Positions 3,447-5,973 of a DNA stretch of 7,803 bases are shown here, one piece after another. The stretch is from Candidatus Dojkabacteria bacterium (lineage in GTDB: Bacteria; Patescibacteriota; Dojkabacteria; SC72): contig WOZL01000032.1 in assembly GCA_011620305.1 (NCBI GenBank), forward strand, positions 1 to 7,803, written 5' to 3'. Position 1 is the first letter of the stretch, and each line of letters opens with the position of its first letter. Both the position numbers and the translations under genes were made by a program. The notes below the pieces were generated by a model, which was given only the letters and a program-made list of their open reading frames with translations, ran no database searches and was not told the DNA's origin.

Positions 3447-3701
3447 ATGTCCAAAAAACTATTTGTAGGTAATATCGAATGGGGTGCTACCGAAGAAGAT
3501 TTAAAGGAACTCTTTGGTCAATATGGTGAGGTTGAAGAAGCTATCATCATTAAAGACAGAATGAGTGGAAGATCAAAAGGTTTTGGTTTTGTAACATTTG
3601 CTGAGGATGCAGATGCTGAAAAAGCTATCGAAGCTCTTAGTGGTCAAGATCTTAACGGAAGAGAGTTAGTTGTCAACGAGGCAAGACCAAGAGAGTTCTA
3701 A
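3447..3701 (+). CDS. Single-RRM RNA-binding protein
   Basis: This 84-residue protein is essentially one complete RNA recognition motif. RNP2 is LFVGNI (residues 5-10) and RNP1 is KGFGFVTF (44-51), with the aromatic residues that stack on RNA bases intact. The fold runs from the first residues to LVVNEARPR, leaving almost no tail. Proteins of this form are common in cyanobacteria (Rbp family) and in CPR bacteria. They bind single-stranded, often U-rich RNA and act in RNA stability or cold response. The ATG at 3447 is fixed by the RNP2 position. The gene stands alone, with a long predicted leader upstream and a strong terminator 20 bases downstream. It lies under 2 kb from a predicted large non-coding RNA, but any partnership with that RNA is only a hypothesis. 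Confidence 0.95.
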   Translation: MSKKLFVGNIEWGATEEDLKELFGQYGEVEEAIIIKDRMSGRSKGFGFVTFAEDADAEKAIEALSGQDLNGRELVVNEARPREF

Positions 3702-3778: not shown

Positions 3779-5326
3779 ATGGAAGAACTGCCAACTAATG
3801 AAACAAATAGTGCTGAGAATTTAGAGAGTTCAAATGAATCTTCTCAAAATGGTAATGATAATGGAGACAAGACATATACTAGAAGAGAATTCAATAAAAT
3901 TTTGGGTATGACTGGACTAGCTTTCCTTTTGGCTTCCTGTGCTCCGGATAAGATGATAGAGGCTGCTCAGGATAATGTGAATTTGCAGAATAATGTAAAT
4001 ACTTTAAATGAGGATTTCTATGCTAGGATAGATCAGTATGTCAATGCTAAAGGGCTATTTAACTATGAAAAATATTCAAATATTTATCCTGAGTTTAATC
4101 AGTATATTGAAAGTATAGATAGATACTCTCAAGAAGTTGAGAGAATGTATGGTATTCACACAGGTATTATGAAGGCCCTAGCCTCTTCTATTTTGGTATC
4201 AAATGTAGGAAGAGAAAACAGTCCAAATGTTGAAAAGGAGTATCAAAAGATTGGCATTATGGGTCTTAGAGGAGCTGATGTATTTCCAGTAATGTCAAAA
4301 GCTTTTGGTGAGCAATATACATACCAAGATTTAGAAAATCCAAATGCTAGTATCTATATCACTATGCTTTACATGGCTGAGAGATTAAAGAGTATACAGA
4401 GTAATGGAGATGGGAAAGAATTGCTTTCATTAATACTTGCTGATTACTACGGCGGTTCCATACTTCAAAAAATTGTTAAAGGTGAGGATAGTATAGAGAA
4501 CTATCCTGGATTAAAATATGGTTATGATCTCTATAACAAAACCTTTAAGATTTTAAAAGGAGAGTCAACTGAGCTCCAAACTGAAGAATCAACAGAAGTA
4601 ATTACTCCTGAACAGGATATTTCAGATCTTGAAGTGGAACCTGACGTCCTAGAAGTGCTCACTCGTGCTGAATCTATATGGTTTAAGTCAAAGTTTAATC
4701 AGTATAGGAGAATATTTGTATTACAGGTAGATAAATATATTGAAAAAGCCAGGATGTTCATTCCTGAGATAACAAAAGCCCAGCTTCTATCTGTATTTCT
4801 CACGATAGCAAGAGCTGAGAGTATGGGTGGAGTGAGAAAAGAGATTGAGAACCCAGATCCAAGTCTTAACAAAGAAGATATTGCTGTTGGTTGGTATCAG
4901 ATAGTTCCTAAATGGAAACATCTTGAGAGATTTAATAAGGAAATGCATAAAAATTATACTTACGATGATATGGTTAATAATGATGTAGCAAGTATAGAGG
5001 CTGGAATATGGACGTTAATGCAATATAGTGACTCTATGGATATCAAAGAACTAATGAAGAAGTTTAAAGGAGGTTGGAATTTTGGAGATATGTACAATCA
5101 ACCTGATGACACTCTTTGGTGGAATAGAGTTAAATATGGAGTTAAGTCTCTTCTAGGTAATGATCCTTTTAATATGAGGTATATAAGTTATTTAGCACCT
5201 AAAGATATATATGATAGTGAAGGAAATTTTATTAAGCAGGTTTGGTCAGGTCCTTTTGAGGGAAGCTATTTTGAAGCATCACCTCACATCGGTGTAATGA
5301 GTCCAGATTTACAGATTGAAGAATAA
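3779..5326 (+). CDS. Predicted Tat-exported lipoprotein with two lysozyme/SLT-like domains
   Basis: This 515-residue protein begins with a hydrophilic Ser/Asn/Glu-rich leader of about 33 residues. A twin-arginine motif TRREFNK (34-40) follows, then a hydrophobic stretch, then a lipobox LASC with Cys54. It is therefore predicted to be exported folded by Tat and anchored by lipid on the outer face of the membrane. Two regions share the order of lytic transglycosylase motifs. The first (about 125-230) has MKALASSILVSNVG, GIMGLRG, YTYQDLENPNASIYITMLYM and LADYYGG. The second (about 330-460) has LTIARAESMGG, AVGWYQIVP and YTYDDMVNNDVASIEAGIW. Only the second has the expected catalytic-type Glu (E347); in the first that position is Ile or Leu. 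A Glu/Thr-rich linker (about 260-292) joins them. Likely role: cutting or binding peptidoglycan. Fold assignment is by motif pattern only. The stop abuts the end of the minus-strand RNA array. Confidence 0.75.
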   Translation: MEELPTNETNSAENLESSNESSQNGNDNGDKTYTRREFNKILGMTGLAFLLASCAPDKMIEAAQDNVNLQNNVNTLNEDFYARIDQYVNAKGLFNYEKYSNIYPEFNQYIESIDRYSQEVERMYGIHTGIMKALASSILVSNVGRENSPNVEKEYQKIGIMGLRGADVFPVMSKAFGEQYTYQDLENPNASIYITMLYMAERLKSIQSNGDGKELLSLILADYYGGSILQKIVKGEDSIENYPGLKYGYDLYNKTFKILKGESTELQTEESTEVITPEQDISDLEVEPDVLEVLTRAESIWFKSKFNQYRRIFVLQVDKYIEKARMFIPEITKAQLLSVFLTIARAESMGGVRKEIENPDPSLNKEDIAVGWYQIVPKWKHLERFNKEMHKNYTYDDMVNNDVASIEAGIWTLMQYSDSMDIKELMKKFKGGWNFGDMYNQPDDTLWWNRVKYGVKSLLGNDPFNMRYISYLAPKDIYDSEGNFIKQVWSGPFEGSYFEASPHIGVMSPDLQIEE

Positions 5327-5339
5327 AAAAAGGAGGGTA
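5325..5339 (-). terminator. Likely 3' end of the array RNA: closing stem strand plus U7
   Basis: On the minus strand the last module ends with UACCCUCC (5339 to 5332), the 3' half of its closing stem, followed at once by seven U (5331 to 5325). The stem encloses a whole folded module rather than a short loop, so it is not a classic hairpin. The preceding P4 hairpin and the U run still make a plausible termination site. It reaches into the stop codon of the convergent lipoprotein gene. Confidence 0.55.
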
Positions 5340-5421
5340 CTGGACTTACACCAGAACACCAATTCTCAAAATCCGAAGACATAAGAAAAGGTGGATGGTT
5401 AAACAACCAACAATACCCTCC
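5332..5421 (-). repeat. RNA module 1 (short type, last transcribed)
   Basis: This module is 90 nt. P1 is a perfect 8-bp stem (5332-5339 with 5414-5421). In minus-strand order, P2 is UGGUU/AACCA with loop GUUU. P3 is CACC/GGUG continuing into a stem of about 10 bp capped by cUUCGg (plus-strand CCGAAG at 5373-5378). P4 is CUGG/CCAG with loop UGUAAGU. It differs from the other short modules at many bases, yet keeps every helix. Confidence 0.85.
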
Positions 5422-5426
5422 ATAAG

Positions 5427-5519
5427 TGCGAGGCACTGGAGTTACACCAGAGCATCAAATCTCAAAATCCGAAGACAAGAGATAAGATGGATGGTTAAAT
5501 CAACCAACAATACCTCGCA
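5427..5519 (-). repeat. RNA module 2 (short type)
   Basis: This module is 93 nt. P1 is 7 bp perfect (5427-5433 with 5513-5519) and extends by a U-G and an A-U pair on the minus strand only. P2 is UGGUU/AACCA with loop GAUUU. P3 is CAUC/GAUG then AUCUC/GAGAU, capped by cUUCGg (5469-5474). P4 is CUGG/CCAG (5436-5450) with loop UGUAACU. Confidence 0.85.
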
Positions 5520-5523
5520 TAAG

Positions 5524-5649
5524 TGTAGAGAGCCGGGCTTACACCGGAGCAACAACCACAAGAAAAGTAATAAAACAAATCAAGCGGGTCTTACAATCCG
5601 AAGAAAGTAAGAACGAAGGAAGGTTTAAAACAACCTACAACTCTCTACA
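5524..5649 (-). repeat. RNA module 3 (long type)
   Basis: This module is 126 nt. P1 is a perfect 9-bp stem, UGUAGAGAG/CUCUCUACA. P2 is AGGUU/AACCU, a compensated change from the short type, with a 6-nt loop. P3 is UCUUAC/GUAAGA capped by cUUCGg (5598-5603). P4 is CCGG/CCGG with loop UGUAAGC. It differs from the short type by an insert of about 35 nt, U-rich on the minus strand, between P3 and P4. Confidence 0.85.
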
Positions 5650-5652
5650 TAA

Positions 5653-5745
5653 TGCAGGACACTGGAGTTACACCAGAGCATCAAATCTCAAAATCCGAAG
5701 ACAAGAGATAAGATGGATGGTTAAATCAACCAACAATACCTCGCA
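5653..5745 (-). repeat. RNA module 4 (short type, copy of module 2)
   Basis: This module is identical to module 2 from the inner end of P1 onward. One P1 strand has changed from TGCGAGGC to TGCAGGAC (plus strand). On the minus strand the 9-position extended stem still forms, with three G-U wobbles and one A-C mismatch. On the plus strand there would be three mismatches. Confidence 0.8.
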
Positions 5746-5749
5746 TAAG

Positions 5750-5875
5750 TGTAGAGAGCCGGGCTTACACCGGAGCAACAACCACAAGAAAAGTAATAAA
5801 ACAAATCAAGCGGGTCTTACAATCCGAAGAAAGTAAGAACGAAGGAAGGTTTAAAACAACCTACAACTCTCTGCA
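5750..5875 (-). repeat. RNA module 5 (long type, first transcribed, copy of module 3)
   Basis: This module matches module 3 except near its outer edge, where one P1 base differs (CTCTCTGCA instead of CTCTCTACA, plus strand). That gives a U-G pair on the plus strand but a C-A mismatch on the minus strand, the one helix change that argues against minus-strand reading. It lies about 24 nt after the predicted minus-strand transcription start. Confidence 0.8.
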
Positions 5876-5905
5876 TTACAAAGATTTTTAATGATCTAGG
5901 ATTTA

Positions 5906-5934
5906 ATAATAGCGAAAATATTTAGGTTTTGCAA
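5906..5934 (-). promoter_or_regulatory. Promoter of the RNA array, TTGCAA-N17-TATTAT
   Basis: Read on the minus strand, TTGCAA (5934-5929) and TATTAT (5911-5906) are separated by exactly 17 bases. This is the best two-box promoter in the window and predicts a start near 5899, 24 bases before the first module. It points away from the HAD gene, whose own promoter is about 80 bases away on the other strand. Confidence 0.7.
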
Positions 5935-5973
5935 GTACATACAATATCTTATAGTAATTTAATCTGTAATTCC

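Follow-up and report, generated by a model that had tools for sequence, protein, structure and literature searches.

The stretch of DNA analysed here (the window) comprises 7,803 nt of a contig from Candidatus Dojkabacteria (WOZL01000032.1). In it, a tandem array of cloverleaf-like modules is flanked by two genes, a divergent one that is HAD-like (Pfam Hydrolase, 24.0 bits, below the cut-off of 26.4) and a convergent one that matches SLT weakly (20.9 bits, below the cut-off of 21.3). The initial annotation had placed five such modules at 5325-5899, and we locate five at 5332-5875, inside that interval and joined by linkers of a few nucleotides. Within the array we found no minus-strand ORF of at least 60 aa, and the plus strand holds one mechanical ORF of 71 aa. 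Table 1 gives the modules in RNA order together with the predicted signals around them; M1 to M5 are the numbers of the initial annotation, which run in the opposite direction.

Table 1. Modules of the array and predicted transcription signals in the window.
Feature	Position	Strand	Basis
TTACTATAAG, putative private upstream element, 13 nt ahead of the -35	5948..5957	-	Present in 7/9 loci
Predicted -35, TTGCAA	5929..5934	-	TTGN3-N17-TAN3T in 9/9 leaders; consensus scan 9/12
Predicted -10, TATTAT	5906..5911	-	TTGN3-N17-TAN3T in 9/9 leaders; consensus scan
BoxA-like GATCATTAAAA, near the expected first RNA base	5886..5896	-	GNWCNTTWAHR in 9/9 leaders
Module 1 (M5), with side hairpin	5751..5875	-	Model R1, 67.6 bits
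Module 2 (M4), P1 imperfect (7/8)	5654..5745	-	Model R1, 52 bits
Module 3 (M3), with side hairpin	5525..5649	-	Model R1, 70.6 bits
Module 4 (M2)	5428..5519	-	Model R1, 59.8 bits
Module 5 (M1)	5332..5422	-	Model R1, 62.7 bits
U7 behind the last closing stem, predicted 3' end	5325..5331	-	Sequence; U-run in 6/9 loci

Read on the minus strand, a module begins with a closing stem of 8 bp (P1), followed by a 5-bp hairpin, a long arm set on a 4-bp stem and capped by cUUCGg in most modules, and a last hairpin of 4 bp with a 7-nt loop, which abuts P1 without a linker. The junction linkers measure 4-2-2-0 nt and the modules 91-127 nt. Most long arms also bear a side hairpin capped by UUUA or UUCG; in the window, this extra hairpin is carried by M3 and M5. 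In an alignment of 19 modules from nine loci, which leans towards the model, includes near-copies among its rows and has three short rows misplaced in the long arm, one common fold leaves 97.0% of 634 cells paired, with changes on both sides in 26 of 35 pairs. None of 500 shuffles reached any of the five measures, and a slid-partner control gave 34-43% pairing. From the same alignment, RNAalifold predicted 31 pairs, 23 of them with double changes. The helices named in the initial annotation are present in this alignment and covary across relatives. Single minus-strand modules (11 folded) gave folding z scores of -1.6 to -5.7, and single window modules on the strand given gave -2.7 to -4.8; contrary to the proposed fold, several minus-strand modules have minimum-energy structures in which the small hairpins pair differently.

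Some details of the initial annotation need correction. It counted five modules, yet M4-M5 is a 226-bp copy of M2-M3 (98% identical), which leaves three independent module types. It also described P1 as fully paired. This is so in M1, M2 and M3, whereas M4 and M5 each have seven of eight standard pairs, and in M4 only four pairs are Watson-Crick. The helix P3 (CACC/GGUG or CAUC/GAUG) likewise stands in M1, M2 and M4, but in M3 and M5 only two of its four pairs hold. The duplication itself (window 5427-5876) shows few differences between its copies, mainly in the outermost closing-stem strands, and looks as if it had been copied by unequal crossing over.

A plus-strand transcript was implied by the initial annotation, but the G-U/A-C balance, the leader and the U-run favour the minus strand, from which the RNA is probably read. 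On that strand the module alignment contains 45 G-U against 4 A-C cells; the ratio is 16 to 2 when P1 and both small hairpins are counted alone, and 12 to 4 for the window modules. Moreover, 615 cells are paired compared to 574 on the plus strand. The conserved unpaired positions count in the other direction: 23 of 29 are U on the minus strand, and so A on the plus strand, and U-rich unpaired positions are unusual for a folded RNA. The array could instead be transcribed from the plus strand, with the upstream gene's transcript continuing into it at the 3' end, given that it begins right behind a plus-strand stop codon in the window, that its unpaired positions are A-rich in this orientation, and that the array region folds well on the plus strand (z of -8.5 against shuffles, with 0/100 shuffles as good). 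However, this reading is opposed by the G-U excess and by a U-run and leader elements of fixed spacing that lie on the minus strand, and we consider it very unlikely.

TTGN3-N17-TAN3T occurs in all nine minus-strand leaders (0.10 expected per 170 nt). Against the minus strand, a consensus promoter scan was overall near chance, with 4 found against 2.3 expected. Just behind the promoter pattern, GNWCNTTWAHR is present in 9/9 leaders, where about 0.01 would be expected per 80 nt for a pattern that was drawn after the leaders had been seen. Further upstream, TTACTATAAG-N13-TTG is found once each in 6 of the 31 family genomes, always at the array; its reversed control has 0 occurrences in the same 31 genomes. 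There are exceptions: G020 has a gap of 23 nt, ten longer than elsewhere, and the element is absent from G005 and G013, so that two of nine loci lack it, a point against the reading proposed below. At the other end, a run of at least 5 U follows the last module in 6/9 loci, with shorter U stretches in the three loci of genus g5. The U7 of the window shares bases with the stop codon that ends the convergent gene. The consensus scan found no compact terminator hairpin at the array end, which again counts against the minus strand.

For comparison with the predicted boxA, the E. coli rrn boxA is TGCTCTTTAACA, and sequences resembling boxA are found in the 16S leaders of three relatives. The 16S model matched full-length in 2 and partially in 2 more of 11 genomes; because only 4/11 gave matches, many of these assemblies must lack rRNA genes or have them interrupted. 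PMC7862264 gives GTTCTTTAAAA as boxA of a Legionella CRISPR array and describes boxA ahead of long non-coding RNAs, CRISPR arrays included. The array resembles such boxA-led transcripts, rRNA operons among them, in having a boxA-like leader before a long, structured and untranslated array (PMC7862264 and PMC12691694); it differs from them in that its predicted boxA lies near the expected first base, ahead of cloverleaf modules.

Relatives of the array were sought with a covariance model (R1). It was trained on six modules, taken from three relatives and read in the orientation opposite to that of the initial annotation. All five window modules, absent from its training, were detected at 52-70.6 bits, and all on the minus strand. 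Among the 31 genomes of the family, R1 found modules in 9, belonging to 3 of 12 genera, and a second model (R2) found the same 9. The nine loci hold 5, 3, 2, 2, 2, 2, 1, 1 and 1 copies: five in the window's own genome, three in a genome of the same genus, two in each of four g11 genomes and one in each of three g5 genomes. A scan of 85 genomes of the class returned the same 9 carriers. Among 379 genomes drawn from the phylum there were 4 carriers, all within the family, in a scan whose strict filters and limit of nine scored candidates per genome may miss distant relatives. A pattern scan of GTDB species genomes matched 5 records, four of them Candidatus Dojkabacteria, and a DNA search of 96 genomes, including the window's own, gave matches in 7; those in G024 and G048 are short and have no model match in support. 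A weak module match of 18.9 bits in G001:C54 was set aside. An origin in phages or plasmids was rejected, as the pattern scan of viral contigs and blastn of the window array against phage and plasmid records gave no match.

In a tree of the CarD-type protein, carriers of g1 and g5 group together (100/98) and g11 is placed elsewhere; this takes at least two changes and is compatible with loss as well as with transfer. The tree covers 26 genomes of the 30 with a CarD match: three matches were unrecognised by the pattern and the split match of G024 was left out. The window's own genome has no CarD match.

In all nine loci the first ORF to follow the array has a convergent orientation, and the array is therefore most likely an independent non-coding RNA gene. 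A riboswitch or other cis-regulatory leader was rejected, with no same-strand gene directly behind the array in 9/9 loci. One hairpin (CCGG-UGNRANU-CCGG) does look similar to the P4/L4 hairpin of the cobalamin riboswitch, but there is no Cobalamin match at E<10 in the window or in the arrays of three relatives, no same-strand gene follows, and the g5 loop differs. Because the flanking genes vary among loci, the conserved unit is the leader with its modules and not a gene pair, and the gene order argues against a role in cis. In the four g11 loci (L011:6846-7190, L012, L013 and L035) a convergent CarD-type gene, assigned by Pfam for L011 and by homology for the others, lies behind the array; a long same-strand gene, ileS by inspection, precedes it in three of them, and in L013 the contig ends. 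Since the array is behind CarD in g11 and the 420 nt after CarD in 22 non-g11 genomes contain no array, the gene occupies different sites in different genera. In g5, a convergent gene follows the array in L036 and L038, with a DEAD-box helicase further on (by Pfam for L036), and in L037 a helicase-like ORF is directly behind it.

The remaining locus, L010, is from the window's genus. Its three-module array has on one side a divergent gene that, by inspection, resembles the HAD-like gene of the window, and on the other a convergent DUF3800 gene (L010:480-1247, Pfam 30.3 bits), which is seen at this one of the nine loci. DUF3800 genes elsewhere neighbour structured RNAs. Pfam gave no DUF3800 next to the array of the window or among those neighbours scanned in L011 and L036, and a search of the 31 family genomes, which missed the L010 gene, gave matches in 6, one of them a carrier. 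We thus rejected a DUF3800-associated RNA.

In multi-copy arrays the closing stems behave differently from the modules they close. In the four two-copy arrays, 87/87, 80/83, 77/89 and 85/85 body positions are identical (87-100%), whereas P1 is identical between modules at 9, 10, 13 and 9 of 16 positions. The pairing energy between the two strands of a module's own P1 is -9.4 to -12.4 kcal/mol; for strands of different modules it is -3.7 to -5.6 kcal/mol in seven of eight combinations and -9.7 in the eighth. This suggests selection for each module closing on itself within one transcript, and because the bodies are near-identical but the P1 stems differ, the modules likely fold side by side. The rule is weaker in the three-copy array of L010, where cross P1 pairs range from -5.7 to -11.2. 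In the window, the recent duplication has left module 2 (RNA order) with a 5' P1 strand that pairs at -12.5 with its neighbour's 3' strand and at -3.7 with its own. Closing stems that differ between near-identical neighbours would provide a testable rule for avoiding misfolding in tandem RNA domains.

We tentatively propose that the minus strand of the array carries an independent gene for a non-coding RNA of about 575 nt. Each of its five modules is predicted to bind one copy of the same protein, which would make the RNA a multivalent sponge or scaffold; we hold this preferred reading to be plausible, if somewhat short of probable. Transcription would start at the TTG..N17..TA...T promoter, aided by a factor reading TTACTATAAG. 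The boxA-like RNA would then recruit NusB and S10 and let RNA polymerase pass the structured array, and the transcript would end at the U-run. Neighbouring modules, by keeping different P1 stems, would each close on themselves and hold one copy of the protein, and the copy number would set the amount of protein held. Holding several copies of one protein would be the simplest function for a repeated-domain plan, following a CsrB-like logic. Several units are present in 6/9 loci; the other three have one copy each, which fits a sponge less well. From the functions offered by the initial annotation we keep the scaffold or multi-site binder as our best guess and the cut precursor as its main rival. 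One could go further and imagine a new class of regulatory RNA in ultra-small bacteria, a dosage-tunable chain of tRNA-mimicking cloverleafs with keyed closing stems, boxA-assisted transcription in the manner of an rRNA operon and a private activator, which titrates a tRNA-binding or translation factor, a combination that we regard as improbable.

A close parallel is the Csr/Rsm system, in which, according to PMC7911923, RNAs sequester a protein, lie behind an upstream sequence of their own and differ in the number of their genes. Like the array, CsrB/CsrC and RsmX/Y/Z stand alone, repeat a structural unit, have an activating sequence to themselves upstream and change in copy number (PMC7911923). 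In contrast, the units of the array are cloverleafs of 91-127 nt, not short hairpins, with no GGA-loop plan, and occur in different bacteria. GGA, the motif that CsrA/RsmA binds in loops, is absent from the hairpin loops conserved among the aligned modules.

In the main rival, RNase P, perhaps together with other processing nucleases, would cut the minus-strand transcript into separate tRNA-like monomers in the fashion of a tRNA operon. tRNA operons and tRNA-like RNAs share with the array the tandem units a few nucleotides apart and a four-way plan in which a hairpin of 4 bp and a 7-nt loop stacks on the closing stem. The 8 bp of P1 and the adjoining 4 bp would stack to 12 bp; the acceptor and T arm of tRNA also amount to 12 bp, which guide RNase P. 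Moreover, the first pair of P1 is G-C and the preceding base U in 19/19 modules. However, ARAGORN finds no tRNA in the arrays and the tmRNA model matches lie elsewhere, so that identity with tRNA or tmRNA was rejected. There is no CCA behind P1, the 4-2-2-0 nt linkers and the long UUCG-capped arm set the modules apart from tRNA, and g5 has a single module. Unlike in the invariant T-loop, positions 1 and 5 of the 7-nt loop covary as an ordinary pair (U-A 12, U-G 4, A-U 3). We consider such a precursor unlikely, and less likely than the protein-holding array.

It is quite improbable, in our estimate, that the array is a housekeeping ribonucleoprotein RNA of the family with a general task, such as rescue, secretion or polymerase control, in unusual form. 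Its strong fold conservation and a boxA-like leader as in rRNA operons would suit such a task, but it is present in only 9/31 family genomes and 3/12 genera. It does not replace tmRNA, which gives matches over the cut-off in 4/9 carriers and 15/22 other genomes, and a bacterial Y RNA was rejected because a Ro60 (TROVE) gene is found in 0/31 genomes (the control was found in 1/14). That the modules form a guide array or a mobile element, as in CRISPR or TIGR systems, seems extremely unlikely. A tandem array in a Patescibacteria-type genome, whose genomic site differs among all three genera, invites the comparison, as do the boxA known ahead of CRISPR arrays (PMC7862264) and the TIGR arrays of CPR bacteria (PMC12045711). 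Yet there are no variable spacers, the bodies of two-copy arrays being 87-100% identical, and modules of 91-127 nt compare with TIGR repeats of 8-12 nt, which have 9-nt spacers and lie beside a Nop protein (PMC12045711). No Nop or Cas domain was found in the nine proteins scanned (eight beside the arrays of three loci, plus neighbours), and phages, plasmids and, by pattern, viral contigs gave no match. With conserved module bodies and no effector domain in these nine proteins, a TIGR/CRISPR array was rejected.

The initial annotation had called the array an RNA of no named family and suggested a covariance model and an Rfam search as a check. Both agree with it: covarying homologues were found, and neither the window nor the arrays of three relatives gave an Rfam 15 match over the gathering score (the best overlapping match in the window, AniS, reached 21.1 of 50 bits). 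Our literature search, which largely did not reach subscription papers, found no description of the RNA itself. A stand-alone RNA of several units is of a known kind; we know, however, of no other RNA that combines such a cloverleaf unit, keyed closing stems and such a leader. To our knowledge, few regulatory RNAs have been described from bacteria of the Candidate Phyla Radiation. Here, an RNA with a strongly covarying fold, a leader resembling boxA and an upstream element to itself varies from 1 to 5 units while its leader plan stays constant, and the identity of its partner would reveal what reduced cells control with it. Near the array, positions 3447-3701 of the window encode a protein of 84 aa that matches RRM_1 of Pfam with 88 bits and is a possible candidate for binding the U-rich unpaired positions.
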